Of a stretch of DNA of 63,679 nucleotides, positions 10,089 to 26,041 are shown one piece after another. The notes below the pieces were generated by a model. It did no database searches. It saw only the letters and a list, made by a program, of their open reading frames with translations, and was not told where the DNA came from. A program made the translations under genes and the position numbers. How positions within the stretch are numbered: position 1 is the stretch's first letter; every line of letters begins with the position of its first letter. Source of the DNA: a virus; the IMG/VR virus record IMGVR_UViG_3300030102_005966, positions 1 to 63,679 of that record, one strand, 5' to 3'.

Positions 10089-10094
10089 AAAGGG

Positions 10095-12335: not shown

Positions 12336-12368
12336 AATCTAAAGTGTTTTGAACACAAATACAAGTGC

Positions 12369-12848
12369 TTATAGGGAGCCGCTCGCTAGGTCTACAACGG
12401 TATCGACAGCAAGGAACTTACGGGAGCCATCTGAACGGTATAGCGTGACATACGACTTGTCGCGCTTCATGGTAGCTCGCACTGGGTAACACTTGCCAGC
12501 ATTCGGTCCCCTCTTCGGAGGGTCTATGCAGTAGATGGCTCCGTAGTGCGTGGTTGCGTATCGCGGGAAGCCGGGGACGATGGTCGCCTGCAGTCCTTCC
12601 AGTATCTCCTCACGGGTCAGGTATTCGGATGGGGGCTCGCCAAACGTAGATTCGGCTAGGCGAGTAGAGTCGAACACCCACTTCTCGCCATTATCCTTGT
12701 ATACCTGTGCATACCACTTGCCGTTCTTAAATTGTTGTATGAGGCGTTTCCCCTCGCGCCACACGTTCCCGTCAGGCGTAAGGCAGTATTTCAAAGCCCC
12801 ATCTATAAATACACTATTTTCCGGTGCTGCTATAACGGTTGTAGCCAT
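12369..12848 (-). CDS. Unknown protein, NUMOD-like fold possible
   Basis: A 159-residue protein. The segment PGFPRYATTHYGAIYCI resembles the NUMOD4-type motif that precedes HNH homing nucleases. The protein has no HNH residues and ends soon after (SYVTLYRSDGSRKFLAVDTVV). It may be a nuclease remnant or a DNA-binding module used for something else. A hairpin pair lies directly upstream at 12871-12931. Confidence 0.5.
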   Translation of the reverse strand: MATTVIAAPENSVFIDGALKYCLTPDGNVWREGKRLIQQFKNGKWYAQVYKDNGEKWVFDSTRLAESTFGEPPSEYLTREEILEGLQATIVPGFPRYATTHYGAIYCIDPPKRGPNAGKCYPVRATMKRDKSYVTLYRSDGSRKFLAVDTVVDLASGSL

Positions 12849-12870
12849 TAGAGAAAATTATTGAATCTGC

Positions 12871-12931
12871 CCTATATATAAACTATTTCCTATATAGGTC
12901 TGTGGTTTATTCTACTTTAGAATAAATTACA
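12871..12931. promoter_or_regulatory. Two inverted repeats upstream of the 12369-12848 gene
   Basis: The first is CCTATATA with TATATAGG (12871-12878, 12891-12898). The second is a 14-bp stem, TGTGGTTTATTCTA with TAGAATAAATTACA, and a CTT loop (12901-12931). Two of its pairs are G-U if the plus strand is transcribed. The second stem shares GTTTATTCTA...TAGAATAAA with the perfect 18-bp hairpin at 48091-48129. It could be an operator or a transcript end. Confidence 0.55.
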
Positions 12932-12968
12932 TACTGCTTCTCAGAAACTTTTCAACTTATTGTTTCAC

Positions 12969-13229
12969 TCAAGACTTTTCTTCTTTCTGCATCTCTGCCC
13001 ACAACTCAGCCGCCCGTTTTAAACGTGAGCGGTGTAAGCGTTCCTTGTTCTTGCGGTAATATGCGCGGTTGTATTTGCGCGTATTCTCCAACCACTTGGG
13101 GTCTGTCTCCTTACGTAGCTCCTTACGCCTTTTTATCGCTTCCTTGTTTTCTTCGTAGTATTTCTTTTGGTAGGCTTTACGGGCATCCTTGTTTTCTTCG
13201 TAGTATTTTTGCTTGTCGGGATTGGGCAT
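12969..13229 (-). CDS. Small charged repeat protein
   Basis: An 86-residue Lys/Glu/Tyr-rich protein with two copies of a KKYYEENK-type repeat (around residues 8-12 and 23-30). It is wholly helical. Short proteins of this make-up often stand alone in phages or at the front of HNH nucleases, but no nuclease residues follow here. It is the last minus-strand gene before the hairpin-rich region. Confidence 0.5.
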   Translation of the reverse strand: MPNPDKQKYYEENKDARKAYQKKYYEENKEAIKRRKELRKETDPKWLENTRKYNRAYYRKNKERLHRSRLKRAAELWAEMQKEEKS

Positions 13230-14508
13230 CCTTATTCATATGCGCGGTTGAATTGGTGTCAAATTTTTTCTTATACTCTCATATATAGATATGCACACGC
13301 GCACGAAAATACGCCACCCTACGGGTGGCGTATTCTGATAACTTCCGACAAGATGTCTAATCTCTAATCGAGATTAGACATAAAAAGATTTGCAACTCCC
13401 TTATAGTGAATACTTAACCCCTAAAGGGTTAAGTATTCAGGGTTCAGGAACCACCTCATCTCGCGTGTGTAGAGAGTGATTTCGCATGTGCACGGCTCTG
13501 CTAAAGCAGAGCGGGGGTTGTATTTCGTTTTGTTGATGACCCTCTCGTTCAGTGTGGAGTATATCCATACTCCACACTGAACCCTGCGCGTTGGTTAAAG
13601 GAACTTGTTCCTTTAACCCGATTCATTAACCATTTTGGATTCAATCAGTTTATATCAATGCATTGATATAAACACCTGTGCGCGAATACTGGAACAAGTT
13701 CCAGTATTTTCCTGAGCTGGAGGCAAGGCAATTTTGGGAAGTGAGCTGACCATCTACCGATGGTCGTGCGCGTTGCTCTGCTTGCAGAGCCAATTTAATC
13801 GGTGTTTTTAGCCTTTGGCTCTGCTAAAGCAGAGCGTCTGCGCGACAGTGCGTGGCTAACAAGTTAGCTCCTGCCCTGTAGCACTCAGCCCCGCCTAGCG
13901 CGGCGCGGATAAGGCGGAGGCGCGACCCAGTTATTTTCTCTGAAAATAACTGAAAAAAAAGAATTTGCCAAGTTCGGCGTTTTGGTGCTAGTGTTTTTGG
14001 GTCATCGGAAATCGACTGACCGAGCCGAACGGTTCGCTGGCTGAACTTGATCGCCAGTCGCCGGGAGAGAGAGATCCTGCTCTCCTGCAAATTTGGCTAC
14101 TCATCCTTGATCCCTTCCTTGTTTGGTAAGGCAGATAGGATGAACCCTACGGGGTTTAGGATAGCTACTATGGTAATTGGAGAAGAATATCTTCGACTTT
14201 TGAGGCAATAAAGTTCCCTCATGGAGATGCACAGCATCTAATCGAAGTAACGATCCATGGTGGTAGTGAGCTGGGATGTCCATGCTTTAGCATGGTCATG
14301 AGTCTTGAAGACGCTCGTCTCCCTCACAGTTAACTGGCTAGGAAGCTGAATCATGTAGTGGATGATTAACTGTCCTACAAGGAAACATGTTGGTTAACAA
14401 TTAAACTCCTTCGGGAGACAATTTCAAAGTTTATAAAGATTTCATTTAAACCCGTTTGGATACAATCCAAACACAACCGCTACCTTCGGTAGCTTAGAAA
14501 GGAACATC
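13230..14508. repeat. Non-coding array of short perfect palindromes
   Basis: About 1.28 kb with no convincing gene. It contains many separate inverted repeats with different sequences: 13308-13334 (12 bp, loop TAC), 13354-13380 (11 bp), 13407-13439 (14 bp), 13495-13512 (GCTCTGC), 13547-13582 (16 bp, loop ATCC), 13593-13618 (12 bp), 13648-13673 (26-nt perfect palindrome), 13685-13708 (11 bp), 13748-13765, 13775-13790, 13818-13835, 13928-13952 (11 bp), 14225-14237 and more. GCTCTGC/GCAGAGC occurs three times; the others are unique. Frames of 60-88 codons on the minus strand here look accidental. Confidence 0.75.
14451..14508 (+). promoter_or_regulatory. Two-hairpin leader, copy 1
   Basis: Hairpin 1 is GTTTGGAT/ATCCAAAC (14454-14472, loop ACA). 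Hairpin 2 is GCTACC/GGTAGC (14479-14493, loop TTC). The ribosome-binding site AGAAAGGA follows at 14497-14503, and the ATG is at 14509. The same layout precedes seven more genes. Confidence 0.75.
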
Positions 14509-15009
14509 ATGGCTAAAGCTAAGATGACCAACCGTAAAACAGCAACTAAGAAAGTTGCTAAGAAAGCTCCTGCCAAACGTAAAGTTTGGAAGAAGCGTCC
14601 AGCAACCAAGAAGGTTGCCAAGGAGACAGCAACCAAGAAGGTTGCTAAGAAGGTGAGTCCAAAGGACTCCACCAAGGAACGGAAGACCGCTCCGGTCTTC
14701 AACCCTCTCGCTACAGCATTTGCTGTAGCTAGGGAAGCAATCGAACTCTTCCGACAGGGAGAGATCGAAGACCTGAGTTTCCTTTACAAGGAACTCACTG
14801 CCTGTTGCTCCGCTAGGAGCAACGGAGACGGTAGCCTTGCATCTCAGATTGAGATGCAACAGTGGAGGCACAACTTTGCCTCCATCCTCTTCGGTATCCT
14901 TGAGGATACCTTGCAAACCGTCGAAGACGGTGGCTCCCTTGAGGAACTCAAGGGTAGGATAGTGGAACAAGTTCCACAAGCTGAGGACTTTGTATCCTCC
15001 ACCCTGTAA
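14509..15009 (+). CDS. Histone H1-like N-terminal protein
   Basis: A 166-residue protein. Residues 1-60 are Lys/Ala-rich with repeated ATKKVAK units, as in bacterial histone H1-like proteins, and are likely to bind DNA or RNA. Residues 65-166 are a separate neutral to acidic helical domain with no recognised family. It is the first gene of the plus-strand accessory block and carries leader copy 1. Its codons contain inverted repeats such as GAGGAACTCAAG-type pairs and CATCTCAGATTGAGATG. The Lys-rich part may package DNA, but that is inferred. Confidence 0.65.
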   Translation: MAKAKMTNRKTATKKVAKKAPAKRKVWKKRPATKKVAKETATKKVAKKVSPKDSTKERKTAPVFNPLATAFAVAREAIELFRQGEIEDLSFLYKELTACCSARSNGDGSLASQIEMQQWRHNFASILFGILEDTLQTVEDGGSLEELKGRIVEQVPQAEDFVSSTL

Positions 15010-15091
15010 AGGGTAGGAGTTCAAGGAACTCCGAGTCAGGGACACTGTAGGTAACTACAGTGTCCTTGCGTTGGAAGTCTTTGTTTAACCC

Positions 15092-15151
15092 GTTTGTATC
15101 CAAAGGATACAAACACAACCGCTACCTTCGGTAGCTTAGAAAGGATAGCTT
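15092..15151 (+). promoter_or_regulatory. Two-hairpin leader, copy 2
   Basis: Hairpin 1 here is GTTTGTATCC/GGATACAAAC (15092-15114, 10 bp). It differs from copy 1 on both arms and keeps full pairing. Hairpin 2 is GCTACC/GGTAGC at 15121-15135. AGAAAGGA follows, with the ATG at 15152. Confidence 0.75.
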
Positions 15152-15403
15152 ATGGATAAGCTATTGGAACTGTTGGATAACATTCTTAACGAATGTACTG
15201 ACAGTGCTGTTATACAGCAACTTGTTTACATGAGGTTGGCTTTAGTCAACCTCAGTAAACGAAAGGGTGGATGCCCTAAGTTCACAACTGTTTACAGTTG
15301 TGCGTTCGGTCATCTCTTTGAAGAGATGATGAAGCTACAGGATGCAGAACTCGAAGAGATCTGCATGGAACTTGATTCCCCTCATGAATATGAGGAAGAA
15401 TAA
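15152..15403 (+). CDS. Unknown small protein
   Basis: An 83-residue protein, helical, with three Cys and an acidic C-terminus. No family recognised. Its coding sequence holds several hairpins, for example CATCTCTT/AAGAGATG at 15311-15328 and TGCTGT/ACAGCA near 15205. A second small gene begins 1 bp after its stop. Confidence 0.6.
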   Translation: MDKLLELLDNILNECTDSAVIQQLVYMRLALVNLSKRKGGCPKFTTVYSCAFGHLFEEMMKLQDAELEEICMELDSPHEYEEE

Positions 15404-15404
15404 A

Positions 15405-15590
15405 GTGGTCATAAAGACCATCAACTCTCCGATTCAACGGAGAGTATGGCAGAGCATGACTCTTAGTCATGCTATGAAGCAAGCCCCAACTCCATCGGAG
15501 TTAAGGGCTAAGTCGGCAACCCAGTCCAGTAAGGGCTGGGTTGATTTCTTGGAGTCCAGTCTTACAGACTGTAAGCTGAAGCTGGACTGA
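15405..15590 (+). CDS. Unknown small basic protein
   Basis: A frame ending at 15590. The start chosen is GTG at 15405, directly after the TAA of the gene before and about 10 nt after a GAGGAA site. ATG at 15384 or 15390 is possible with overlap. The product is about 61 residues and basic at its start. Inverted repeats tile the frame: 15425-15444 (CTCTCCG), 15453-15473 (AGCATGACT, 9 bp), 15482-15509 (nested), 15553-15588 (nested). Confidence 0.5.
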   Translation: MVIKTINSPIQRRVWQSMTLSHAMKQAPTPSELRAKSATQSSKGWVDFLESSLTDCKLKLD

Positions 15591-15598
15591 ACACTCCA

Positions 15599-15624
15599 CC
15601 CTCCACCCTCTACAGGGTGGAGGG
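15599..15624 (+). repeat. 11-bp hairpin, copy 1 of a repeated element
   Basis: CCCTCCACCCT (15599-15609) pairs with AGGGTGGAGGG (15614-15624), loop CTAC. A second copy with a 13-bp stem is at 16115-16144. Both stand between genes and lack a T-tract, so they may be mRNA-end or processing hairpins. Confidence 0.65.
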
Positions 15625-15654
15625 TTCAACCTAAATTAGAAAGGAACTTAGCCA

Positions 15655-15882
15655 ATGGCTAATTACATCAACACTTTACAGGAAGCTGTAAAGGAACATC
15701 ATGCTGACAAAGAGAGAGCAATCGAAACAATTAATTGTTTCATGAACTATCTCCAATCATCCAAGTTTTGGAATGATACCACCATCCAAGTTGTAGAAGT
15801 TGCTAGACTTCTACACAACATCAAGTCAGAACTTGATGTTGATAGATACGAACCCGATTGTATCCAAAAGATACAATCATAA
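15655..15882 (+). CDS. Unknown small protein
   Basis: A 75-residue helical protein (MANYINTLQEAVKEHHADKE...). No family recognised. An AGAAAGGA site stands 10 nt upstream. The frame holds long inverted repeats: TGTAGAAGT/ACTTCTACA (15792-15815), an 11-bp CAACATCAAGT/ACTTGATGTTG (15816-15841) and GATTGTATC/GATACAATC (15856-15878). The last doubles as hairpin 1 of the next gene's leader. Confidence 0.6.
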   Translation: MANYINTLQEAVKEHHADKERAIETINCFMNYLQSSKFWNDTTIQVVEVARLLHNIKSELDVDRYEPDCIQKIQS

Positions 15883-15913
15883 CCGCTACCTTCGGTAGCT
15901 TAGGAAGGAACTT
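15856..15913 (+). promoter_or_regulatory. Two-hairpin leader, copy 3 (overlaps the end of the gene before)
   Basis: Hairpin 1 is GATTGTATC/GATACAATC (15856-15878), lying in the last codons of the 15655-15882 gene. Hairpin 2 is GCTACC/GGTAGC (15885-15899). AGGAAGGA follows, and the ATG is at 15914. Confidence 0.7.
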
Positions 15914-16105
15914 ATGGCATCAAACTATAAGTTTTATAGACGACCAGCAATCGTCATTCGCTCCAACGCTAAAAGCGGTGGAGGCTATGCCCTTCAGAGG
16001 CAGAGCGATGAGCTTTATGAAAAGCTCATGGAGGCAGAGGCAGTGATAAGATCACTGCAAGCGAAGCGGAGACTTCGCATTCCCTTGGAAGACCAAGATT
16101 GGTAG
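15914..16105 (+). CDS. Unknown small protein
   Basis: A 63-residue basic protein (MASNYKFYRRPAIVIRSN...) with a short helical middle (DELYEKLMEAEAVIRSLQAK). No family recognised. It has its own two-hairpin leader and is followed by the repeated CCCTCCACCCT hairpin. Confidence 0.55.
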   Translation: MASNYKFYRRPAIVIRSNAKSGGGYALQRQSDELYEKLMEAEAVIRSLQAKRRLRIPLEDQDW

Positions 16106-16114
16106 TCCATACTC

Positions 16115-16144
16115 TACCCTCCACCCTCTACAGGGTGGAGGGTA
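16115..16144 (+). repeat. 13-bp hairpin, copy 2 of a repeated element
   Basis: TACCCTCCACCCT pairs with AGGGTGGAGGGTA, loop CTAC. It is the same core as at 15599-15624, extended by two pairs on both arms. It lies between two genes. Confidence 0.65.
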
Positions 16145-16173
16145 TAACTTAAACAGAAAGGATACAAAGTATC

Positions 16174-16395
16174 ATGCCTTCTTTTAGAACCAAGACAGCA
16201 AGTCAGTCTCACCTCGATCTTCGTGAGGCTAAGAGGTCTTGCTGTATACCAAACCACCAAGATACTTGGTGGTTCAAAGACAAGCCTTGGAAGAAACCCA
16301 AGGCTTGGAGAGGATCGAAACTAGCCAAGAGGCTTTCCGCTAAAGCGGAAAGAAAACAAGCAAAGCTTAACTTAAACAGAAAGGATACAAAGTGA
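16174..16395 (+). CDS. Unknown small basic protein
   Basis: A 73-residue Lys/Trp-rich protein. No family recognised; basic charge suggests nucleic acid binding. Three hairpins lie nearly back to back inside the frame: AACCACCAAG/CTTGGTGGTT (16252-16274), CAAGCCTTGG/CCAAGGCTTG (16281-16307) and CTTTCCGCT/AGCGGAAAG (16333-16352). The C-terminus NRKDTK is encoded by the AGAAAGGATACAAAG ribosome-binding motif of the next gene, whose GTG start overlaps this stop. Confidence 0.55.
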   Translation: MPSFRTKTASQSHLDLREAKRSCCIPNHQDTWWFKDKPWKKPKAWRGSKLAKRLSAKAERKQAKLNLNRKDTK

Positions 16396-16733
16396 GTATT
16401 GAGAATGATACCGTGACAGGTGGTGAATATCCCTCATGGGATAATCACACTGCAAAGTTATTCAGAGATGCTAAAGCATCTGCTGAACTATTTACTCCAC
16501 CACTTTATAAGTGGATGGAGTATGCTGATGATGATCGTAACCCCCTTGGGGTTACTGATGGTAAGGTTCTTAACCTTACCGAACCCGACCCCGGAGGGGT
16601 CGAAGAGATTGGCTTTGGTATTCCTATGGAATACCAAGATGACACTCCGTCATTTGAAACCCAACCAAAACTTAACCCTGAAGGGTTAAAGAACCTCAAA
16701 GAAAGGACACAAAGTAATGGATACTACGTATAA
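16392..16733 (+). CDS. Unknown small acidic protein
   Basis: A 113-residue acidic protein starting at GTG 16392 (overlap GTGA with the previous stop). The GTG is placed by the AGAAAGGATACAAA motif. No family recognised. Inverted repeats inside include CCCCCTTGGGG-type and GGTATTCCTATGGAATACC-type pairs. Its 3' end overlaps the next gene by 17 bp. Confidence 0.55.
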   Translation: MSIENDTVTGGEYPSWDNHTAKLFRDAKASAELFTPPLYKWMEYADDDRNPLGVTDGKVLNLTEPDPGGVEEIGFGIPMEYQDDTPSFETQPKLNPEGLKNLKERTQSNGYYV

Positions 16734-16932
16734 CGGCTGGAGAAATCGCTCCACTTGGTTAGTTAATGTTTGGTTTAACCCAACATCCTCTGATCTTGAC
16801 TCCATAAAAGAAAGTCTTGATCAAAAGGTAGATGATCTACGTAACTCTAATGATATGCTGGACAACTTCCTCGCTGACCATATCAATTTAGATGAAATTG
16901 ATTGGGAGGAGTTAGCTGAGGCTCTCGCCTAG
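16717..16932 (+). CDS. DUF7249-like small phage protein
   Basis: A 71-residue protein with the N-terminal motif YNGWRNRSTWLVNVWF and an acidic helical rest. The motif is one I recall from a small phage protein family (DUF7249-like), function unknown. A composite hairpin follows the gene. Confidence 0.65.
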   Translation: MDTTYNGWRNRSTWLVNVWFNPTSSDLDSIKESLDQKVDDLRNSNDMLDNFLADHINLDEIDWEELAEALA

Positions 16933-16946
16933 GTGCAGGCGAAAAA

Positions 16947-17028
16947 CACCACCCTCTCGGAAAGGTGGTATAGCATTCTCTAACATAGTGTAGAGAATGC
17001 ATACCTCCTTTCCTTAGAGAGGGGGGTG
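16947..17028 (+). ncRNA. Composite long hairpin between genes
   Basis: One extended fold made of stacked helices: CACC/GGTG plus CCCTCTC/GAGAGGG, GGAAAGG/CCTTTCC, GGTAT/ATACC and an inner 10-bp GCATTCTCTA/TAGAGAATGC with an 8-nt loop. There is no T-tract after it. It may stabilise or cleave the transcript upstream of the AAA+ gene. Confidence 0.6.
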
Positions 17029-17060
17029 AGCAACCGAATTTCAAAACCCCCTTTTGATAA

Positions 17061-17120
17061 CCCGTTTGGATTCACTCCAAACACAACTGCCACTACGGTG
17101 GCTTAGAAAGGACATAGCTT
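17061..17120 (+). promoter_or_regulatory. Two-hairpin leader, copy 4
   Basis: Hairpin 1 is GTTTGGA/TCCAAAC (17064-17082). Hairpin 2 is GCCAC/GTGGC (17089-17102), which differs from GCTACC/GGTAGC on both arms. AGAAAGGA follows at 17105, and the ATG is at 17121. Confidence 0.75.
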
Positions 17121-18251
17121 ATGGCTAAGTCAGAAGTGCCGATAAGAAAGTTATCGGTTTCAGAAGTTGGTGCTATTGCACCACTCACCTATCAGACAAA
17201 CAGATTCTTCTGTTTGCTGGGCAAGGGAGGCAATGGTAAAACTACCATCGCTTCCACCGTGGTAGCTCCGGCTATCGGAGCTACTAGGGCAATGATCCTG
17301 AACTTCTCAGGATCATCTCCGATGGAGGTTCTTGGTTACGGCATCCCCGATGCTTCTACAAGAGACCTTTGGTTCTCTTGTCCTGAGAATCTCCCTACTA
17401 GGGAGAGGATCGGGGATGAGAAAATCCTTCTCGTCCTTGACGAGTTCACTGACTGGGACTTAGCAGTCCAGTCACTGTTCAAGTCTTGCTTCAACCCTGT
17501 TGATGGTGAGGCGAAGATCGGGACTCACGTTCTTGGTAAGAACGTCAAGATCATGGTGACTGGTAACCGTCGCCAAGACGGTTCCAGTAAGTCTTCGGTT
17601 CTGTCTGCTCCACAAGTGGAGAGACAGTTTACTTACATCCTTGAACCCACTCTTGATGAGTGGATTCAGTGGGTAGCCGACGAAGGCTTCGGTGACTCCG
17701 CCATTTTGACATATCTTGATATGGCAAATGGTCTTGAGGGAGTTGACCATTTCAATCCTATGATTGGAACTTGGGAAGGTGCTCCTCATCCATGTCCTAG
17801 GACATGGGATGCCGCTATCCGGTCAGTGTCTTTGACATCTGACCAGAACCTCCAGTCTATCCTTCTTGAAGGATCGGTTGGAATTGAAGCAGGCTCTGCC
17901 TGTATGTCCTTCTTGAATACTGTAGCAACTATGTTGCCAGTATACAAAAGGATTAGGGATGGAGTGGAAGAGATGGCACTCGACTCTAATGGAGTCGAAC
18001 GCTCACCCCAAGACCAGTATGGTCTTGTCCACTGTGCTCTCCGCAATCTCCTGAAGGAGACTGCGTCAGACCCTGAGGCAGCAGTAGTCGAAGACTCTGC
18101 TGGTAATACTGACATCGACTGGTTCGTCGATAGATTCCTTCTTGCTGGCAAGAATGAGATCGGTGAATGGGGCTACTCCGCTACTAAGCGGAATGGAGTT
18201 CCCATCAACAACCACCCTAAGCGTGAGCGTCTCCAAGGATTTGGAGACTAA
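17121..18251 (+). CDS. AAA+ ATPase, MoxR-like
   Basis: A 376-residue protein. Walker A is GKGGNGKT (residues 34-41), Walker B LVLDE (near 104-108), and a sensor-1-like MVTGN ends at N149. These match the AAA+ MoxR/CobS type, which works as a ring chaperone with a VWA partner. Here the VWA protein is encoded at 19370-20953, with one unknown gene between. At least six inverted repeats tile 17139-17316 within the frame, including one over the Walker A codons (17233-17248). The two-hairpin leader precedes it and a composite hairpin follows. The target is unknown; phage remodelling or assembly roles are possible. Confidence 0.8.
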   Translation: MAKSEVPIRKLSVSEVGAIAPLTYQTNRFFCLLGKGGNGKTTIASTVVAPAIGATRAMILNFSGSSPMEVLGYGIPDASTRDLWFSCPENLPTRERIGDEKILLVLDEFTDWDLAVQSLFKSCFNPVDGEAKIGTHVLGKNVKIMVTGNRRQDGSSKSSVLSAPQVERQFTYILEPTLDEWIQWVADEGFGDSAILTYLDMANGLEGVDHFNPMIGTWEGAPHPCPRTWDAAIRSVSLTSDQNLQSILLEGSVGIEAGSACMSFLNTVATMLPVYKRIRDGVEEMALDSNGVERSPQDQYGLVHCALRNLLKETASDPEAAVVEDSAGNTDIDWFVDRFLLAGKNEIGEWGYSATKRNGVPINNHPKRERLQGFGD

Positions 18252-18262
18252 GCGCACTCACA

Positions 18263-18342
18263 CTTCCCTCTTAGGAGGGGGGTTAGTAACTACTCTTTAT
18301 GCAGTAAAGAGTAGTTACACCCCCTCCGTTAAGAGAGGGAAG
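18263..18342 (+). ncRNA. Composite long hairpin between genes
   Basis: Stacked helices: CTTCCCTCTTA/TAAGAG-AGGGAAG (2-nt bulge), GGAGGGGG/CCCCCTCC (18274-18281, 18320-18327) and a 14-bp GTAACTACTCTTTA/TAAAGAGTAGTTAC (18286-18299, 18305-18318) with loop TGCAG. There is no T-tract. Its design matches the one at 16947-17028 with unrelated sequence. Confidence 0.65.
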
Positions 18343-18350
18343 ATAAACAA

Positions 18351-18410
18351 AACCGTTTGGATACAATCCAAACACAACTGCTACCTTTGGTAGCTTAGAA
18401 AGGGTTAGTT
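18351..18410 (+). promoter_or_regulatory. Two-hairpin leader, copy 5
   Basis: GTTTGGAT/ATCCAAAC (18355-18373) and GCTACC/GGTAGC (18380-18394, loop TTT) are followed by AGAAAGGG and the ATG at 18411. Confidence 0.75.
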
Positions 18411-19307
18411 ATGGCTAACACTGTTATCGTCGATGACAAAAAGATCGACACCAAAATGCGAAGCATAGTGAAATGCACTTTCACTGCTTCTTGTCCAGCA
18501 GCTACGGTGGTTCACCGTGTTGCCACTGAGAAAGTCAGTGACATCTACAACTCCAGCGACGAAGTCGCTTGGGTAAAGGTAGCTCCGATTCCCCGTAAGG
18601 GGAGTGTCTACGGTAGCTTAACCTCTGTTATTAACTCTACTGGAGTTAAGATCAGAGACATGGGCTTACCTTGTAAGACCGGAGGGACTTACATCCAGTC
18701 TGCTGATATCGAAGAGGTTATTACCATCTTCGATGAAGGTCAGAAGGAACTTGATCGACTTATCAAAGTCGTTCTTCCGGCTGAGTGGGACGGTATCGTA
18801 GCTAAAGCTACGAAGGATATGGGGGAACTTGCTAAAGCAGTTCCCATCCCAACTGCTGAAGTGTTCGGTTCCAAGTTTGGAATGGACATCATTTGGGAGC
18901 ACAGCCCTCAAGATATTGAGGGGACTGTAATGAAAGGAGTTGCCAACGAAGTTGCGGCTCGGATCAGAGCACAATCAAAGAAGTCCACTAAGGACATGTT
19001 TGTCACTGCTCATGGAGCACCTATTCAGGAAGTCATTACCTTCCTGACTGACACAATCAAACACCTTAGTGGTGGTAAGAGGTTGGGTCAGAAGAGGTTC
19101 GACAATGCCGCTAAAGCGGCTCAGAAGTTAGCGAAGAAAAACATTCTCGATCTCCCTGAGATTGAGAGTGTTATCCAAGCTATGGCTTCGATTGGTGCAA
19201 CCAATCGTGATGACATTGTCACTGACAGTGACAAGGATAAAGTCATCGAGAAAGTGAAACACGCTACCAAGGTAGCGTTGACTGCCAAGGCAGACCTTGG
19301 TCTGTAG
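18411..19307 (+). CDS. Unknown partner gene between AAA+ and VWA
   Basis: A 298-residue protein, mixed N-terminus and helical C-terminal half (about residues 180-298, rich in Lys and Ala). No domain is certain. Phage MoxR-VWA cassettes often carry a helical protein such as DUF3150 in this slot, so a similar adaptor role is a reasonable inference from position only. The frame is full of inverted repeats like its neighbours. Confidence 0.6.
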   Translation: MANTVIVDDKKIDTKMRSIVKCTFTASCPAATVVHRVATEKVSDIYNSSDEVAWVKVAPIPRKGSVYGSLTSVINSTGVKIRDMGLPCKTGGTYIQSADIEEVITIFDEGQKELDRLIKVVLPAEWDGIVAKATKDMGELAKAVPIPTAEVFGSKFGMDIIWEHSPQDIEGTVMKGVANEVAARIRAQSKKSTKDMFVTAHGAPIQEVITFLTDTIKHLSGGKRLGQKRFDNAAKAAQKLAKKNILDLPEIESVIQAMASIGATNRDDIVTDSDKDKVIEKVKHATKVALTAKADLGL

Positions 19308-19314
19308 TTAACCC

Positions 19315-19369
19315 GTTTGGATACAATCCAAACACAACTGCCACCTCCGGTGGCTTAGAAAGGAACACT
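19315..19369 (+). promoter_or_regulatory. Two-hairpin leader, copy 6
   Basis: GTTTGGAT/ATCCAAAC (19315-19333) and GCCACC/GGTGGC (19340-19354, loop TCC). The second stem again differs from copy 1 on both arms with pairing kept. AGAAAGGA follows, and the ATG is at 19370. Confidence 0.75.
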
Positions 19370-20953
19370 ATGAGTGTTGCTGTTAGAGCGAAAGCTCGTG
19401 AAATTCCTAGCTACGTAGTAGCTGGGTCAAAGATATCCGTTCCCATTAATGGGAAGGACATCCTTGCTAGGGCATTGAGAGTAGTCAGAGACTACTGTCC
19501 ACTTGCCTACGGCAAGTTGGTAGCCATGGACTGGTTCGGCACTGACCGAACTGCCTACGGTGCTACCGATGGTAGGAAGCTTTTGCTTAATCCCAAGGGA
19601 TTAGCGAAGCTGGCAGAGACATCCGACCCTGTCGGACTGACTGCCTTCTTGCTTCTCCATGAAGCTTACCATGCTTTGCTTGGTCATGGTCATAGACTGA
19701 AAGGTCTTAACCACGATTTAGCAAATCGTGCCGCTGACTACTCAATCAACTGGTTGATTAGTCAGGAGAACAACAAGTATGATAGGGAACACTTCCCTAT
19801 CATCGAAGGTGCTCTGCTTGATTCTCGCTTTGACAATATGTCAACCATCGAGATATACCGTCAGTTGCTCAAGGAGCAACCCGAACCACCTCAGGGTGAC
19901 AACCCTGAGGGGGGTGGAGGTGGAGAACGGATCAACGTCAACGGCACTCCTAATCCCGAAGGGGATTCGGAGGACGGTGATGGTGACGGAGACACCGAAG
20001 GTGGTAGCACCGAAGGTGAGGACACTGGAAGTGGAAACACCGAAGGTGACGAAGACGGTGAAGGCACTGAAGGTGGAGACACCGAAGGTGACGGCGGGGA
20101 TGACACCGAAGGTGACGACTCCACTAGTGGAGGAGGAGCTGACACCAACCCCGGCAAGCCGAAGTCTGACAGTGAAATTCTCGGAGATGACTTTGCTGGC
20201 AAGGGAGGTCAAGATACCTTCGAGCCGAAGGCTAATCCGAAGGAGAAGAAATCTCAGGAAGAGATTGAGAAGGAGATTGATCAGCACAACGAAAAGGTTG
20301 TGTTGATTGATCGGATGGCTGAATCCTGTGGGATTGGTGGCTCTGCTGGAACACGTTCTGTTGCAGAACAGAACAGTGTTACAAAGAAGCCCTTTGACTG
20401 GGCTTCCTATCTCATCCACTGGATGTCAGCAAGGCTGGATGAAGGTTGGAACAAGATGTTCAACACTCCGATGTATTCCTCTACAGGAATGGTTTGTGCT
20501 GGACGAGAGAGAAAGTCAGCTGGAAAGCTGGTCATCGTCGTAGACGATAGTGGATCTATCTATGATAGACTTCTCAAGTTGTTCTTGCTCTGTGTCCAAG
20601 AAGTCTTGGACGAGATGAAGCCTGAGGTTATACACCTCATTGCTGTAGACAACCACTATCCTACAGAGGATAGACAGTGGGAGTTAAGACCGGGGGACAC
20701 CGTCCCCGACAGACTCCCCAATGGTGGTGGAGGCACTGCTTTTCAGCCAGCATTTGACTGGGTGGAGGACAACTGTCCTGACTGTGATGGTCTTGTCTAC
20801 ATCACTGATGGTCAGAGCTGGGATATCAGTGATATCCGCGAGCCGGACTATCCGGTCTTTTGGTTGAGCTGGTGGCTCAACAAGGATAGCTTCCCCTTTG
20901 GGGACGCTCACCGGATTGATCCATCAATCGCCAGTTACGACCACGGTCGGTAA
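19370..20953 (+). CDS. Metallopeptidase-like/VWA protein (CobT/DUF2201-like)
   Basis: A 527-residue protein. Residues 1-165 are a peptidase-like domain with HEAYH (97-101), a HExxH-type zinc site as in DUF2201 proteins. Residues about 165-265 are a low-complexity Gly/Asp/Glu/Thr linker (repeats of GDTEG). Residues about 370-527 form a VWA-like domain with DDSGS (about 391-395), a MIDAS-type metal site, and GGTAF later. Proteins of this build work with MoxR/CobS ATPases, here at 17121-18251. Hairpins inside include CACGATTT/AAATCGTG (19712-19730), GATAGGGAA/TTCCCTATC (19781-19801) and CTCAGGGT/ACCCTGAG (19890-19909). Confidence 0.8.
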   Translation: MSVAVRAKAREIPSYVVAGSKISVPINGKDILARALRVVRDYCPLAYGKLVAMDWFGTDRTAYGATDGRKLLLNPKGLAKLAETSDPVGLTAFLLLHEAYHALLGHGHRLKGLNHDLANRAADYSINWLISQENNKYDREHFPIIEGALLDSRFDNMSTIEIYRQLLKEQPEPPQGDNPEGGGGGERINVNGTPNPEGDSEDGDGDGDTEGGSTEGEDTGSGNTEGDEDGEGTEGGDTEGDGGDDTEGDDSTSGGGADTNPGKPKSDSEILGDDFAGKGGQDTFEPKANPKEKKSQEEIEKEIDQHNEKVVLIDRMAESCGIGGSAGTRSVAEQNSVTKKPFDWASYLIHWMSARLDEGWNKMFNTPMYSSTGMVCAGRERKSAGKLVIVVDDSGSIYDRLLKLFLLCVQEVLDEMKPEVIHLIAVDNHYPTEDRQWELRPGDTVPDRLPNGGGGTAFQPAFDWVEDNCPDCDGLVYITDGQSWDISDIREPDYPVFWLSWWLNKDSFPFGDAHRIDPSIASYDHGR

Positions 20954-20999
20954 CCAATCGTCCTAAGCATGACATTAAACTGCTTACTTATACTAACCC

Positions 21000-21038
21000 G
21001 TTTGGATATAATCCAAACACAAAACAGAAAGGAAGCCA
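21000..21038 (+). promoter_or_regulatory. Single-hairpin leader, copy 7
   Basis: GTTTGGAT/ATCCAAAC (21000-21018, loop ATA) is followed by CAGAAAGGA and the ATG at 21039. The second hairpin is absent. Confidence 0.7.
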
Positions 21039-21257
21039 ATGGCTTATGAAAAAATAGCGGTTAAGATTAACCGTAGAGATGGAGATGGAGTGTATTACAT
21101 ACAGTCCATAAAGGGATCAGTAACCCTTACGGTTATCATTGATAACCAAGACGAAACGCTGAGAGTAGGTGACGAAGTGTCTGAGAAGGAGGTTGAATAC
21201 CTCGTTGATCGGCATAGGTCTTACTCTGTAACTATAAGCAGTGTGAAAGGAGGTTAA
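21039..21257 (+). CDS. Unknown small protein
   Basis: A 72-residue beta-rich protein (AVKINRRDGDGVYYIQSIKG...). No family recognised. An AAAGGAGG site near its end serves the next gene, whose start is 3 bp after this stop. Confidence 0.55.
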   Translation: MAYEKIAVKINRRDGDGVYYIQSIKGSVTLTVIIDNQDETLRVGDEVSEKEVEYLVDRHRSYSVTISSVKGG

Positions 21258-21260
21258 GTT

Positions 21261-21689
21261 ATGTGGATACATAGTGAAAAAGGATTCCTCTCTATAGTAG
21301 AGTTCATTGGGAGTCCCGATAACTTGCTTGTAAGAGCAAGGTATGACGGAGACATTGAACGTATCTTTGGAGAAGATACTTATGTGATGGCTGGAGCTGG
21401 CTCTGACTATGAATTCCGGGCTGTTGTTCCTAGGGAACAAGTGTCTGCTGTCATTCATAGAATGGTTGACGAAATTAGTTACCCTAATTTTAAAGACCGG
21501 ATGGAGAACGTCCATCGTCGCCAACATTCGGACTACCTAGGTAGTATCCACCCTGCTATCAAACCATCAACTGATATGGTTGAAGTAAAGCAAAATGCTT
21601 TACATAGAGTTTGGGAAGTTATGTTCCAAGCTCAACAAGAAGCTGACGCTTGCATAGACTGGACTAATGTAGTCGAGACTAGTGAGTAA
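21261..21689 (+). CDS. Unknown protein
   Basis: A 142-residue acidic protein beginning MWIHSEKGFLSIVEFIGSPD. The N-terminal half has beta-strand patterns (LLVRARYDGDIERIFG), the C-terminal half is helical. No family assigned. It is coupled to the 72-residue gene before it by an AAAGGAGG site. Confidence 0.55.
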   Translation: MWIHSEKGFLSIVEFIGSPDNLLVRARYDGDIERIFGEDTYVMAGAGSDYEFRAVVPREQVSAVIHRMVDEISYPNFKDRMENVHRRQHSDYLGSIHPAIKPSTDMVEVKQNALHRVWEVMFQAQQEADACIDWTNVVETSE

Positions 21690-21701
21690 ATAAACAAAAC
21701 C

Positions 21702-21755
21702 GTTTGGATACAATCCAAACACAACTGCCACTACGGTGGCTTAGAAAGGATCAAC
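21702..21755 (+). promoter_or_regulatory. Two-hairpin leader, copy 8
   Basis: GTTTGGAT/ATCCAAAC (21702-21720) and GCCAC/GTGGC (21727-21740) are followed by AGAAAGGA and the ATG at 21756. Confidence 0.75.
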
Positions 21756-22295
21756 ATGAAAGATGTTGAAACTAAAGTAGCCGATTACATCGGTAAAAAT
21801 CCTGCATTTAGAATGCAGGTAGCTAAGTTCCTGCTGTCACAGGAACTATTAGAAGAGGGTTATACCCTGAGTTCTTCGGAACCGGAGGTGACCACTCCCC
21901 CCAAACAAGAGAGGGTAAAGAACACGACCACTACTGGTCATGTTCTCTACTGGAGCAACAAACTTCTGAATGACAGAGCAGAGGAAGTTGCTAGGATAAT
22001 TCAGGAACTTGTTCCTGACACCACCCTTGATGGATGCCGTGGTAAAAACACCAACGGTATGAAGTCGGTTGTTCACAACCTGTGGCGAGGCAAGAAAGCA
22101 GTGGATGCTGTTGAACTGGCGTTAGGTGAACCTAACTCCATAAAGTCCCGAAGGACTATTGGAAGACAAACCGCTAGTCGGTTTGTCAATCGCTTCCTAG
22201 TTCCTTACTTCCTCCTTGAGGACAGGGGACACTTCGATAAGGCAGACCCTTCCAAGGGAATGGGTCTTGAGGATTTAATTGCTTCAAACCTGTAG
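21756..22295 (+). CDS. Unknown protein
   Basis: A 179-residue protein. Residues 1-45 are a helical N-terminus, a Pro/Thr linker follows, and the rest is basic and helical (TGHVLYWSNKLLNDRAEEVA...). No domain recognised. The basic C-terminal part suggests nucleic acid or protein binding. It is the last gene with the two-hairpin leader. Confidence 0.55.
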   Translation: MKDVETKVADYIGKNPAFRMQVAKFLLSQELLEEGYTLSSSEPEVTTPPKQERVKNTTTTGHVLYWSNKLLNDRAEEVARIIQELVPDTTLDGCRGKNTNGMKSVVHNLWRGKKAVDAVELALGEPNSIKSRRTIGRQTASRFVNRFLVPYFLLEDRGHFDKADPSKGMGLEDLIASNL

Positions 22296-22312
22296 CAATT
22301 AATCCACACTCC

Positions 22313-22345
22313 ACCCTGTCTCCTCCACACTGGAGGAGGCAGGGT
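22313..22345 (+). repeat. 14-bp hairpin between genes
   Basis: ACCCTG-T-CTCCTCC pairs with GGAGGAG-G-CAGGGT around loop ACACT. The single non-Watson-Crick pair is T with G, which pairs as U-G in plus-strand RNA but not in minus-strand RNA. Confidence 0.65.
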
Positions 22346-22377
22346 ATTAAACAACAAACAAGAAAGGATACAAAACA

Positions 22378-22698
22378 ATGAGTGTTTTGACAAAGACCGT
22401 GAAGACGGAAACAAAAGAACCGCTACCGAGTGTAGCGGAATTATTAGAACTGCTGGAAAACATCAGCAGTCACATGAACGAAGCCAGTAGTTTACTGGGG
22501 GATGTTGAAGGCTATGTCGAAGACGTAGTCGAAGAGGTTAAGGGTATAGACGGGGAGAACAAATCCTATGAGGTAGAGCAGTTGCTCTACGAGAATGTCA
22601 TACTCCAAGCTGATAGCATCAGCATCGACAATGAAATTGGCGAGGTCAATGATATTGTTAATAGCCTCCATAATGATATGGAGGTAGGTGATGAGTGA
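22378..22698 (+). CDS. Unknown acidic coiled-coil protein
   Basis: A 106-residue acidic helical protein (Glu, Val, Asp rich). No family recognised. Inverted repeats inside include CCGCTAC/GTAGCGG (near 22420), ACTGCTG/CAGCAGT, GTAGAGCA/TGCTCTAC and CCTCCAT/ATGGAGG. Its stop overlaps the next start. AGAAAGGATACAAAA precedes the ATG. Confidence 0.55.
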   Translation: MSVLTKTVKTETKEPLPSVAELLELLENISSHMNEASSLLGDVEGYVEDVVEEVKGIDGENKSYEVEQLLYENVILQADSISIDNEIGEVNDIVNSLHNDMEVGDE

Positions 22699-22855
22699 AT
22701 CAACAGAGGACTTCTTAGAAAGGTTTGAGCAATTCTTAATGAAAGAAGTTGGCGAGAACTGGTACTACGAATTCACAATGGAAGAAGACTCAACCTTATA
22801 CTTCAAGGTATTGAATGTGTGGGGTGAGCAGTTCAAGGAGGACAACGATGAGTAG
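22691..22855 (+). CDS. Unknown 54-residue protein
   Basis: ATG at 22691 overlaps the end of the previous gene by 8 bp. The product (MSESTEDFLERFEQFLMKEV...) is acidic with aromatic residues. A GGAGG site near its end leads to the next start. No family recognised. Confidence 0.5.
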   Translation: MSESTEDFLERFEQFLMKEVGENWYYEFTMEEDSTLYFKVLNVWGEQFKEDNDE

Positions 22856-22961
22856 CAAAATAGAAATGATACTTTCGTTGATCACGCTACCCACTATAGG
22901 AATAGTGGGGTTCTTGGTGATGATCATCAAAGAGAAACTAAACAGAAAGGATACAAAGTGA
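22848..22961 (+). CDS. Small single-span membrane protein
   Basis: A 37-residue protein with one hydrophobic segment (about residues 7-26, LSLITLPTIGIVGFLVMII) and a basic tail. The tail NRKDTK is encoded by the ribosome-binding motif of the next gene, as in the gene at 16174-16395. Start and stop overlap both neighbours. Confidence 0.5.
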   Translation: MSSKIEMILSLITLPTIGIVGFLVMIIKEKLNRKDTK

Positions 22962-23287
22962 AGATTATAAATATACTTGTAGGAGATGCAGATCAAGCTA
23001 CCGACATTTGTCGGATGCTTAATCACGCCGAAGCAGTAGGAGAACTCGACTTCTCCTTTGACGTATCAGTAACAGATACTGAATCGGATGAAGATGAAGA
23101 ACCGGAGGTTGTCATGTCATGGGATAGAGAGATGTTCTTTGAGGATGACGAAGTCACCGATGAGGAGTGGGCTGAGTGTTGTGCTAAAGCAAATGGCATG
23201 GACTGCTCCGGAATATGGGAGGATGTGGCTTTTACAATCGAAACTCATCTAAAGGAGATGAGGGAAGCAAAGAAAGGAGATGCCTAA
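22958..23287 (+). CDS. Unknown acidic protein
   Basis: A 109-residue strongly acidic protein, GTG start at 22958 fixed by the AGAAAGGATACAAA motif. The middle has a run of Asp and Glu (DTESDEDEEPEVV), so a DNA mimic is possible but unproven. Inverted repeats inside include CCGACA/TGTCGG and GGAGAA/TTCTCC. Confidence 0.55.
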   Translation: MKIINILVGDADQATDICRMLNHAEAVGELDFSFDVSVTDTESDEDEEPEVVMSWDREMFFEDDEVTDEEWAECCAKANGMDCSGIWEDVAFTIETHLKEMREAKKGDA

Positions 23288-23444
23288 CATCAAGATGTTC
23301 ATCTACAAATCGGGCGACTACTGGAAGATATGTTCTTCCAACAACCCAACCAATGTGATTACTCTTGATGACCCGAAGGGTGCAAAGAGAATTGCTTGGT
23401 GCTTGGGCTGGAAGTTGGTTCGCAAAAAGGAATGGGACTCTTAG
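23280..23444 (+). CDS. Unknown 54-residue protein
   Basis: ATG at 23280, preceded by AAAGGAG, overlapping the previous gene by 8 bp. The product is basic and Trp-rich (MPNIKMFIYKSGDYWKI...). No family recognised. Confidence 0.45.
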   Translation: MPNIKMFIYKSGDYWKICSSNNPTNVITLDDPKGAKRIAWCLGWKLVRKKEWDS

Positions 23445-23590
23445 TCCTGCCAATATATTTAAGACCAGTGGTAGCCCTGCTGGTGCATAGCTTTGTAATG
23501 GCGGATGTCATTACCTATGTGCTGGCGGGGTTACTTATGGTCTATAGAAACTGCATGTTAATGCAACAGCAACAAGATAAAACAAGATAA
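23432..23590 (+). CDS. Possible small membrane protein
   Basis: A start at 23432 gives 52 residues with a hydrophobic region (MGLLVLPIYLRPVVALLVHS) and a second one near VITYVLAGLLMVY, ending in a Gln-rich tail. The ribosome-binding site is poor, so this is less certain than its neighbours. Confidence 0.35.
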   Translation: MGLLVLPIYLRPVVALLVHSFVMADVITYVLAGLLMVYRNCMLMQQQQDKTR

Positions 23591-23605
23591 AAGGAGATAA
23601 TTAAA

Positions 23606-23926
23606 ATGAAGAAAAAATATTACACACTTTTTGTTACGGAAGAAAGTGATTATCATTGTGAAAGGATAGTCGCAACTTACGAGGCTGAAGAAAACTCAAA
23701 CCCAAAAGATCTTTTTGATCTATTCTTAGAAGAACAAAATGAGAAGAACGCTTGTTGGAGTGCAACAGAGGGAAAAATACCTAACAACAACTCATCGTAT
23801 GTAGTCGAAGGAATAACAGTATCAGACTCTCCTGTATACTTCATCCATTTAGATGAAGTAGATGGAAGTAAATACAATAAGGGTTTAGGACTCATTCACG
23901 ATCCATCAAACAGACTAGGATTTTAG
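23606..23926 (+). CDS. Unknown protein
   Basis: A 106-residue protein (MKKKYYTLFVTEESDYHCER...), with an AAAGGAGA site upstream. It is AT-richer than the genes before it and has few inverted repeats, so it may have a different history. No family recognised. Confidence 0.5.
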   Translation: MKKKYYTLFVTEESDYHCERIVATYEAEENSNPKDLFDLFLEEQNEKNACWSATEGKIPNNNSSYVVEGITVSDSPVYFIHLDEVDGSKYNKGLGLIHDPSNRLGF

Positions 23927-23941
23927 TCCCGAATATTAATA

Positions 23942-23961
23942 GCCCCCTCTTCGGAGGGGGC
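23942..23961 (+). terminator. UUCG-loop hairpin
   Basis: GCCCCCTC pairs with GAGGGGGC around loop TTCG. The very stable fold lies right after the stop of the 23606-23926 gene. There is no T-tract, so it may be an mRNA-end stabiliser. Confidence 0.55.
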
Positions 23962-23984
23962 ATCCAAAACAGAAAGGATACAAA

Positions 23985-24299
23985 GTGAGTAAACAAAAAG
24001 AAATTCATGTAGAATACGAGTTGATTTTGCGGTATCAAACCGACACTGAACTCGTCTTAGACGTAAGAAAAGATACTGTCGATTCAGATGGCGAACCTAT
24101 AGAAGAAGAGTATGTCGAAGGATTTTTCTACGACCATCGGGATCTCAAGAAAAACTATAAAGATGCTGTCACAGAATTCCTTGAACTAAAAGAAAAATAT
24201 CCCGATGCTCATGTCACCGATGATATTCTAGAGGAAGCAACAGAGTTATTAGCAATCCGTTACGGCAAAGGCTCATGGGAGGTAGCATCAAATGGGTGA
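23985..24299 (+). CDS. Unknown acidic protein
   Basis: A 104-residue protein. GTG start at 23985 is set by AGAAAGGATACAAA. It is acidic and helical in its second half (DAVTEFLELKEKYPDAHV). No family recognised. Overlaps the next gene by 8 bp. Confidence 0.5.
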   Translation: MSKQKEIHVEYELILRYQTDTELVLDVRKDTVDSDGEPIEEEYVEGFFYDHRDLKKNYKDAVTEFLELKEKYPDAHVTDDILEEATELLAIRYGKGSWEVASNG

Positions 24300-24627: not shown

Positions 24628-24643
24628 CGAGAAAGGATACAAA

Positions 24644-25057: not shown

Positions 25058-25074
25058 AATAGAAAGGATACAAA

Positions 25075-25894: not shown

Positions 25895-26041
25895 ACGAAC
25901 AGAGACTAGGAAATCGTAGGAGAGCTACGATCCGGGTTCTTTTATACTTACTTATCCCGTGTGGGGTTAAGTAAGAAAGTAACTGGAAGGGTTATATTTG
26001 TTTTCCCCCAGTTCACCCTCATTGAACACTCTGTTTGTTTA

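Follow-up and report, generated by a model that had tools for sequence, protein, structure and literature searches.

A presumed early operon of a marine phage, coding sequence included, is saturated with short perfect hairpins

A real and extreme excess of short perfect hairpins was confirmed in one region of the phage DNA analysed here (the window: the whole stretch of 63,679 nt, IMG/VR record IMGVR_UViG_3300030102_005966). The affected block contains about 190 stems per 10 kb, i.e. approximately one short perfect hairpin per 50 bases, roughly ten times the number expected by chance, and it was demonstrated that synonymous codon choice accounts for a large part of this excess. The best explanation, to which we give a nearly even chance, is continuing selection for a bulk density of local hairpins in the RNA of the early operon.

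The source phage is uncultured and marine, and its gene set (terminase, DNA polymerase, helicase, primase) is that of a tailed phage.

Extent of the block and the predicted transcription unit

Stems were counted when perfect, at least 6 bp long and closed by a loop of 2-8 nt. A two-rate maximum-likelihood analysis placed change points at 13,300 and 23,340, separating 19.0 from 2.4 stems per kb, which bears out the claim of an earlier note that a hairpin-saturated block starts at about 13.3 kb; elsewhere in the window the density is 1.8-3.1 per kb. Most bins within 13-23 kb hold 14-25 stems per kb (the composition expectation is about 1.4), and those of the remaining window mostly 0-4. Coding and non-coding DNA of the block are equally dense (20.9 and 22.1 stems per kb), and the density drops along the operon from 22 to 20, 14 and 7 per kb. 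The thinning towards about 25 kb described in the earlier note is a genuine lower-density enrichment, but it reaches about 26.2 kb (6.9 stems per kb in 23.5-26.24 kb, and 1.7 per kb beyond). All six hairpins named there as examples are present, although the spacing is wider than the 20-40 nt given (median gap 23 nt, mean 36 nt).

The block begins approximately 25 nt downstream of a predicted rightward promoter, and the density equals background beyond two strong predicted terminators (26,041-26,235); promoter and terminators are consensus predictions. Thus, the hairpin density coincides with one predicted transcription unit, and this coextension favours an RNA-level cause. The unit, a rightward and presumably early operon, extends from about 13.28 kb, where the divergent promoter lies, as far as the terminators at 26.07-26.24 kb. 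The features are listed below; G001 denotes a relative (IMG/VR 3300029448_000033), an independent contig from another metagenome.

13248-13277, + strand: predicted rightward promoter, TTGAAT-18-TATACT (in G001 TTGAAT-16-TATACA, in the same place)
13258-13335, no strand assigned: family-conserved divergent intergenic element, GTCAAATTTTTT - ATATATA - AAAA - GGGTGG
13300-23340, + strand: hairpin-saturated block, about 19 perfect stems per kb in coding and non-coding DNA, from Poisson change points and the hairpin list
13308-13952, + strand: non-coding array of 13 perfect hairpins (6-16 bp), several spaced by TGCGCG
13547-13582 (16 bp), 13648-13673 (12 bp), 15816-15841 (11 bp): example hairpins
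16252-16274 (10 bp), 19779-19803 (11 bp; first given as 19781-19801), 20821-20837 (7 bp): example hairpins
13999-14440, + strand: non-coding stretch with fewer short hairpins; short identical blocks common to G001, GGGTCATCGGAAA and CCATGGTGGTA
14454-14493, + strand: first copy of a two-hairpin gene leader, GTTTGGAT-ACA-ATCCAAAC / GCTACC-TTC-GGTAGC, then the ribosome-binding site AGAAAGGA
15092, 15856, 17064, 18355, 19315, 21000 and 21702, + strand: starts of further leader copies or variants
14509-15009, + strand: lysine-rich protein gene, 15 stems (1.9 in synonymous shuffles)
17121-18251, + strand: AAA ATPase gene (PHROG 1297), 23 stems (2.2 in shuffles)
18411-19307, + strand: gene without assigned function, 17 stems (1.8 in shuffles)
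19370-20953, + strand: DUF2201 VWA-like / putative metallopeptidase gene (PHROG 1314), 32 stems (2.9 in shuffles)
23340-26235, + strand: promoter-distal part of the same predicted unit, density lower, still raised
26041-26074, + strand: predicted intrinsic terminator, 15 bp stem then T7
26197-26235, + strand: second predicted intrinsic terminator, 17 bp stem then T7

In both this phage and G001 the GGGTGG box lies within the first hairpin. The stretch at 13999-14440 is possibly a separate structured RNA; Rfam contained no match for it or for the hairpins. The stem sequences, said to differ throughout, mostly do so, except that the leader recurs in front of eight genes, its copies differing by paired changes, and that the stems ACCCTCCACCCT and GCTCTGC recur within the block. 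In the leader hairpin the motif TTTGGATAC forms a palindrome, and the motif occurs again in both orientations at 26.3-26.75 kb; no other IMG/VR contig matched the recurrent leader pattern. ARAGORN placed a tRNA at 16029, but its anticodon is incomplete and the call is probably an artefact of a hairpin.

Codon choice, stem anatomy and relatives

The genes of the block contain 136 stems where synonymous-codon shuffles give 17.6 (z up to 17.7), whereas control genes mostly equal their own shuffles. The tested genes in 28-59 kb gave z values of -1.3 to 1.5, in agreement with the earlier observation that the structural and replication regions lack the feature; the comparison that had been proposed as a refutation, with synonymous shuffles and the genes of 28-48 kb, therefore left the claim standing. 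Where four inner pairs are given, the fifth is formed at 82% of the sites with a synonymous choice, versus 41% in shuffles. Of the suggestion that selection works through synonymous codons, these two comparisons show the codon component; as to the process that wrote it, simulations accommodate selection and copying alike.

In nine block genes local folding is stronger than in shuffles by 2.4-4.1 kcal per 40 nt (z of single genes -6 to -18), and in three genes of G001 by 2.2-2.6 kcal per 40 nt, the control genes of the same phage differing from theirs by +0.1 to -0.8 kcal per 40 nt. The antisense strand gives equally strong folding z-scores. The stems carry no extra amino-acid cost and are not moved toward variable residues, and the ribosome-binding sites are kept open (stem coverage of 0.04 at -16 to -8, versus 0.28 overall).

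The stems are Watson-Crick paired with abrupt ends, 6-11 bp long in coding sequence and 6-16 bp in the block overall; the long intergenic ones (11-16 bp) are nearly all perfect. Stem extension has a roughly constant probability (about 0.6), and pairing past the first mismatch is absent (0.28 versus 0.25). Mismatches at stem ends are resolvable in 38.4% of cases, against a baseline of 37.8%, so codon constraint does not explain the ends. Perfect stems occur without gradual imperfect ones, and simulated selection for contiguous stems yields the same. The loops, earlier described as 2-7 nt, are indeed short but concentrated at 2-5 nt, with a preference for 2-3 nt and an approximately 10-fold drop by 7 nt, and the closing pairs are pyrimidine-purine (84% and 94% for 2-nt loops). 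RNA energies favour loops of 4-8 nt over 3 nt and do not predict the preference of the phage; DNA energies predict neither this preference nor the closing-pair bias. Neither RNA nor DNA thermodynamics accounts for the short-loop spectrum, which fold-back copying would be compatible with. Sense-strand stems show a weak excess of G.U over A.C in the window (37 versus 15); across 27 relatives the values are 1.87 and 1.12 (control genes 1.30 and 1.11).

In G001 the same operon is likewise saturated (12.1 stems per kb), with 33 in-gene stems versus 3.6 expected. Its proteins are 61-74% identical to those of this phage, but third codon positions only 43%. In the three genes compared, 4 of the 34 stems of G001 (68 in this phage) stand at identical positions, with no clear excess of divergence in one arm over the other or over unpaired DNA. 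Among 48 relatives the early-operon genes show enrichment relative to the control genes in their own records (Wilcoxon p=0.005); outside G001 the enrichment is weak or absent, and relatives do not share the closing-pair bias. Moderately enriched relatives were rejected as milder cases: the excess in L194 stems largely from one repeated intergenic palindrome, and that in L156 largely from dispersed non-coding repeats. No close relative of the block was found, nor any terminase relative in 50,697 phage records; matches in bacterial genomes were mixed MAG contigs and indicated no host.

Explanations for the hairpins

Under selection on the early transcript, the feature would be a property of one RNA, that of the rightward, presumably early operon. 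Selection would act on the bulk density of short, fast-folding hairpins rather than on single structures, so that hairpins would turn over while the proteins are kept, preserved by means of synonymous codons and variable residues. We infer that the selected molecule is RNA. Coextension with the transcript and the weak G.U excess favour RNA; the loop spectrum, which the RNA model does not predict, the equally strong antisense folding and the abrupt perfect stems count against it. The likely benefit is conjectural: the hairpins may shield the approximately 12.8-kb transcript, with its 1.2-kb untranslated leader, from ribonucleases, RNA-targeting defence or Rho, the protected molecule probably being a long, poorly translated phage RNA. 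Depletion of ribonuclease motifs (RNase E-like) and of UpA is small and confounded, as all self-complementary dinucleotides are depleted. We tentatively propose, at somewhat less than an even chance, that the whole operon, coding sequence included, is a chain of short perfect hairpins protecting the first long transcript of a DNA phage, and that selection for bulk structure keeps it up as single hairpins come and go. If protection is its role, such an operon is a natural counterpart of engineered highly structured mRNA.

Fold-back template switching is a rival of nearly equal standing, though less likely than not. As the region is replicated, a nascent 3' end would fold back over 2-5 nt, pair with a short complement and copy it, time and again turning near-palindromes into perfect hairpins; purifying selection would retain mainly those that spare the protein, and the hairpins would be a functionless by-product. 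The perfect stems with constant extension and no pairing past the first mismatch, the ends unexplained by codon constraint, and the 2-5 nt loops with their closing pairs suit a tight fold-back. There are precedents in nematomorph mitochondria (PMC6649704) and rRNA hairpins (PMC8794818), and a conversion model with 30-50% free codons attains the observed density and stem statistics. Under strict protein conservation, however, the model does not get beyond about 6 stems per kb of coding DNA, far from the near-equal coding and non-coding densities observed; the stems show no shift towards variable residues, divergence is not clearly higher in either arm, and the start just past the predicted promoter and the end at the predicted terminators are left unexplained.

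Simulations of selection and of copying, run on random coding sequences, both reproduce the stem-length, stem-end and mismatch statistics. The idea that template switching perfects near-palindromes is thus matched by simulation, but so is selection. Three arguments were dropped: (i) scarce G.U pairs as evidence for a DNA process, since simulated RNA-energy selection is also dominated by Watson-Crick pairs, (ii) the abrupt stem ends, the constant extension and the absence of pairing past mismatches as signs of copying, since contiguous-stem selection gives much the same, and (iii) equal coding and non-coding density as fatal to copying, since the model with 30-50% freely variable codons attains equality. 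The sole mode of selection excluded by simulation is one saturating at 6 bp.

A function at the DNA level, in which the hairpins would serve within single-stranded DNA or be bound by proteins (for example as an origin, as recognition sites or as N4-like vRNAP hairpin promoters), is unlikely. The N4 virion RNA polymerase promoters are short hairpins with 3-nt loops. The leader motif recurring beyond the terminators, a different repeated intergenic palindrome in other relatives and the alternation of the non-coding array with TGCGCG speak for such a role, as does the ATPase gene adjoining the VWA gene, N4 having an annotated ATPase/HNH pair (gp24-gp25). Against it, approximately 140 in-gene stems differ in sequence, unlike a recognised site, DNA energies fail on loops and closing pairs, and duplex DNA would not extrude stems as short as 6-8 bp. 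The gene content of N4 is partly similar (ATPase gene, giant gene on the opposite strand), but in the N4 stretch examined there are 3.3 stems per kb and never more than 8 within 1 kb, whereas here hairpins run throughout genes. Motif B of the N4 polymerase was not found in the giant 5938-aa protein, which showed no convincing similarity, and a PDB search gave no RNA polymerase match.

Evasion of guide-RNA immunity, a specific version of selection on RNA or DNA, is very improbable. A hairpin in nearly every 30-40 nt would make the spacer or target self-fold, weakening CRISPR interference at the first-expressed genes. The median gap is indeed shorter than a typical CRISPR spacer, and the effect depends on neither sequence nor position and turns over, but most relatives show the trait weakly or not at all. 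Amplified metagenomes contain fold-back chimaeras, but intact reading frames and recurrence in the independent G001 contig, together with conserved proteins and the limitation to one operon, refute an amplification or assembly artefact in practice, and its probability is negligible.

Known systems and significance

The literature search found no described phage system of this kind, consistent with the same statement in the earlier note, and nothing comparable seems to have been described in phages. The closest precedents, genome-scale ordered RNA structure (GORS) and nematomorph palindromes, fail defining tests. GORS likewise involves pervasive coding-sequence structure beyond codon-shuffled controls, but it is genome-wide and occurs in positive-strand RNA genomes; here, in a double-stranded DNA phage, the structure consists of short perfect hairpins confined to 13.3-26.2 kb and surpasses shuffles by several kcal per 40 nt. 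Nematomorph mitochondria also carry perfect inverted repeats in conserved coding genes, many species-specific in position and few imperfect (110 of at least 15 bp in four genomes; mean 43 bp, mean arm distance 37 bp; PMC6649704), but their arms are 15-142 bp and more widely spaced. Quasipalindrome correction by template switching similarly yields perfect Watson-Crick short-loop stems through copying of one arm (PMC8794818, PMC7202029, PMC8604942), but is known from scattered single events, whereas here a steady state would extend over one operon with its surroundings spared. In cells and dsDNA viruses, mRNA folding in mid-coding regions is under weak selection of the same direction; yet for 650 dsDNA viruses folding scores beyond the start region come out at zero or just below it (PMC7063772, PMC3072339), far from the single-gene values obtained here. 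Conserved RNA structures of the Rfam type differ in that here hardly any stems are shared with G001.

The novelty lies in the form, since pervasive coding-sequence structure is already known from RNA viruses. If fold-back is the cause, this would be the most intense template-switch mutagenesis known to us in protein-coding DNA, in one operon only, and replication of the region would be opened to study. If selection on RNA is the cause, local structure can be written into a whole viral operon with the proteins left intact, which would point to a strong threat to early phage RNA, from nucleases, RNA-targeting immunity or Rho. With either cause, the operon carries a silent-site code far stronger than the folding biases of the tested control genes.

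Density and anatomy of the hairpins

Between 13 and 23 kb, perfect stems (≥6 bp, loops of 2–8 nt) occurred at 13–25 per kb (approximately 1.4 expected), while the other bins mostly contained 0–4, which bears out the hairpin saturation claimed for this region in the earlier note. The density changed at 13,300 and 23,340, and stems of at least 10 bp were located mainly at 13–20 kb. Stretches of the comparison phages T7, N4, T4, crAss001, HTVC010P and lambda had means of 1.2–3.8 stems per kb, and their densest 1-kb bin held no more than 9. The claim also withstood comparison with synonymous-codon shuffles: genes between 14,509 and 22,698 carry 136 stems versus 17.6 in the shuffles. The highest z-scores were those of the VWA gene (17.7), the ATPase gene (14.7) and the gene at 18411–19307 (12.4), against −1.3 to 1.5, and 3.2 in one case, for the genes tested outside the operon.

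RNA folding analysis (40-nt windows) revealed that nine block genes fold 2.4–4.1 kcal/mol more strongly than their shuffles, compared with +0.1 to −0.8 kcal/mol for the polymerase, terminase, helicase and left-operon genes. In a survey of 650 dsDNA viruses, folding scores beyond the start region were zero or slightly negative (PMC3072339). Of the unrelated genes tested for comparison, lambda gene O (L228 38686–39585), which contains the origin iterons, showed the largest gain over its shuffles, 1.65 kcal per 40 nt.

Between 13.3 and 23.5 kb, 188 non-overlapping hairpins cover 35% of the sequence (median gap, 23 nt). Enrichment over the control was approximately 30-fold for loops of 2–3 nt, 13-fold for 4–5 nt and 2–3-fold for 6–10 nt, with little above 15 nt. 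The closing pair was 5'-pyrimidine/purine-3' in 84%, 77% and 69% of the 2-, 3- and 4-nt loops, respectively, and in about half or less of those of at least 6 nt. Non-coding stems extend to 16 bp, versus 6–11 bp in genes, at equal density. Registers placing just one pair out of three at a wobble position were rarer (27 vs 57 and 47), the pattern that a protein constraint on the hairpins would give. Ribosome-binding sites are kept open (stem coverage 0.04 at −16 to −8). Eight genes are preceded by a two-hairpin leader followed by AGAAAGGA (one copy lacks the second hairpin), and the second hairpin varies by paired changes (GCTACC/GGTAGC, GCCACC/GGTGGC). The 5' half of the leader palindrome, TTTGGATACAAAA, occurs about six times in both orientations at 26300–26740 and recurs in the relative G001 (IMG/VR contig 3300029448_000033). 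TGCGCG follows hairpins of the non-coding array at 13585, 13679, 13767 and 13839, an arrangement also found in G001.

GORS and the nematomorph coding palindromes each share part of this pattern, but the block lacks at least one tested defining feature of each. A search of the open-access literature with narrow terms found no phage precedent for a hairpin-saturated operon, in agreement with the note, to which no described phage system of this kind was known.

Limits of the block

The following predicted signals delimit the putative transcription unit:
13,248–13,277, promoter TTGAAT-18-TATACT, with a similar promoter in G001
26,041–26,074, one of the two strongest + strand terminators
26,197–26,235 (+), the other of these terminators

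The block starts approximately 25 nt downstream of the promoter. Up to 21 kb there are 22 and then 20 stems per kb; the figure falls to 14 as far as 23.5 kb, to 6.9 as far as 26.24 kb and to 1.7 thereafter. Across the divergent promoter, the leftward operon (1–13283) contains 3.1 per kb, a mild excess over the 1.8 of 28–63.7 kb. An RNA-level cause is argued for most strongly by this match between the block and a single predicted transcription unit.

Several other elements were noted in and around the unit. The divergent intergenic region holds a family-wide conserved element (13258–13335, and upstream of homologues of g10095, the leftward-operon gene at 10095–12335, in approximately 40 relatives): GTCAAATTTTTT - ~20 nt - ATATATA - ~18 nt - AAAAA - ~12 nt - GGTGG, a candidate promoter pair or origin. 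The non-coding stretch at 13999–14440 (also locus L116, ~5330–5860, reverse) has the short blocks GGGTCATCGGAAA and CCATGGTGGTA in common with G001 and promoter-like sequence ahead of it, and is a candidate structured RNA. It had no match in Rfam, and a model built from the window and G001 matched, among the loci searched, only G001, its own training sequence. Beyond the terminators, at 26745–26790, the alternating purine-pyrimidine run GTGTGCGCGTGTGCGTGTGCGTGTGCGTGTGCACACGTG is a candidate Z-DNA or origin-like sequence.

The phage group and the history of the trait

The window, a single virus record of 63,679 bases, carries tailed-phage genes (large terminase, DNA polymerase A, helicase, Cas4-like exonuclease and primase). 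IMG/VR contains 446 relatives of its terminase and none were found in 50,697 phage records, and thus the group appears to be uncultured. The phage may be marine, judging by where related IMG/VR contigs originate. Four terminase matches in bacterial MAG contigs fell in different bacteria and indicated no single host. A giant open reading frame of 5938 aa (27912–45728, −) is weakly conserved among relatives; it had no match in Pfam or, for its N-terminal 3000 residues, in PHROG, and nothing convincing in PDB (weak pentatricopeptide-repeat similarity only, E 0.006).

Among the relatives, G001 has a homologous operon that is also saturated (12.1 stems per kb; 33 stems vs 3.6 in shuffles), and it shares the bias towards short loops and the closing-pair preference. 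In the other relatives the trait varied between absent and moderate (the pooled in-gene ratio was 2.0 for the early operon vs 1.5 for control genes, paired p=0.005; 6.2 in L175 and 3.7 in G011). Across three orthologous genes, the 34 stems of G001 and the 68 of the window have just 4 positions in common, the hairpins being placed differently over conserved residues. The first non-coding hairpin is common to both, with a compensatory change (AATACGCCACCC/GGGTGGCGTATT vs AATACACCACC/GGTGGTGTATT).

The left-operon protein (10095–12335) of the window groups with that of L140, a relative without the trait, and that of G001 with L141/L194, whereas in the block genes (17121–20953) the window and G001 are mutually closest (ATPase, 74% vs 44–48% for the next relatives). 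These conflicting groupings point to a mosaic history: either the operon was transferred from one lineage to another or the trait has two origins. Relatives have a different palindrome, TTAACAACTGAGTTGTTAA, ahead of many early genes (in L194, ~2–5.5 kb upstream of the g10095 homologue), which suggests a lineage-specific leader or operator subject to replacement over time.

Selection or copying

The earlier note proposed selection for structure through synonymous codons or template switching. Simulations of selection and of fold-back copying, run on random synthetic coding sequences, showed that each process could reproduce the stem statistics. Selection for global RNA folding energy fell below the local hairpin density and spread loops to 10 nt. 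Energy parameters prefer loops of 4–8 nt over 3 nt (RNA) or of 4–5 nt (DNA); since neither set predicts the observed 2–3 nt, the hairpins are not governed by plain thermodynamic stability. Such loops would be better accounted for by RNA that folds fast and locally as it grows, or by a 3' end that folds back.

With 30–50% of codons free, copying and contiguous-stem selection each yielded the observed density, extension probability (~0.6), stem ends and few mismatched stems; saturating selection was the sole model excluded.

We tentatively favour selection on the early transcript over fold-back copying. Copying, which the short loops and these simulations would allow, is a nearly equal alternative. 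In coding DNA it yielded no more than ~6 stems per kb when restricted to synonymous outcomes, and it leaves the coincidence with one predicted transcription unit unexplained. There was also no sign of one-sided rewriting, as amino-acid conservation is equal in stem and unpaired codons and divergence is about the same in the 5' and 3' arms. In relatives, whose genomes are not independent, G.U stems on the sense strand are in excess over A.C stems (1.87 vs 1.12; control genes, 1.30 vs 1.11), which favours sense RNA; in the window this excess is weak, and antisense folding z-scores are as strong as sense ones. The two processes may act jointly, copying as the source of the stems and selection as the reason they persist in this transcription unit.

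Under selection on the early transcript, the hairpins could plausibly protect it from nucleases, RNA-targeting defence or Rho. Such a function is supported in kind by the link between coding-sequence structure and mRNA half-life reported in PMC6883848.
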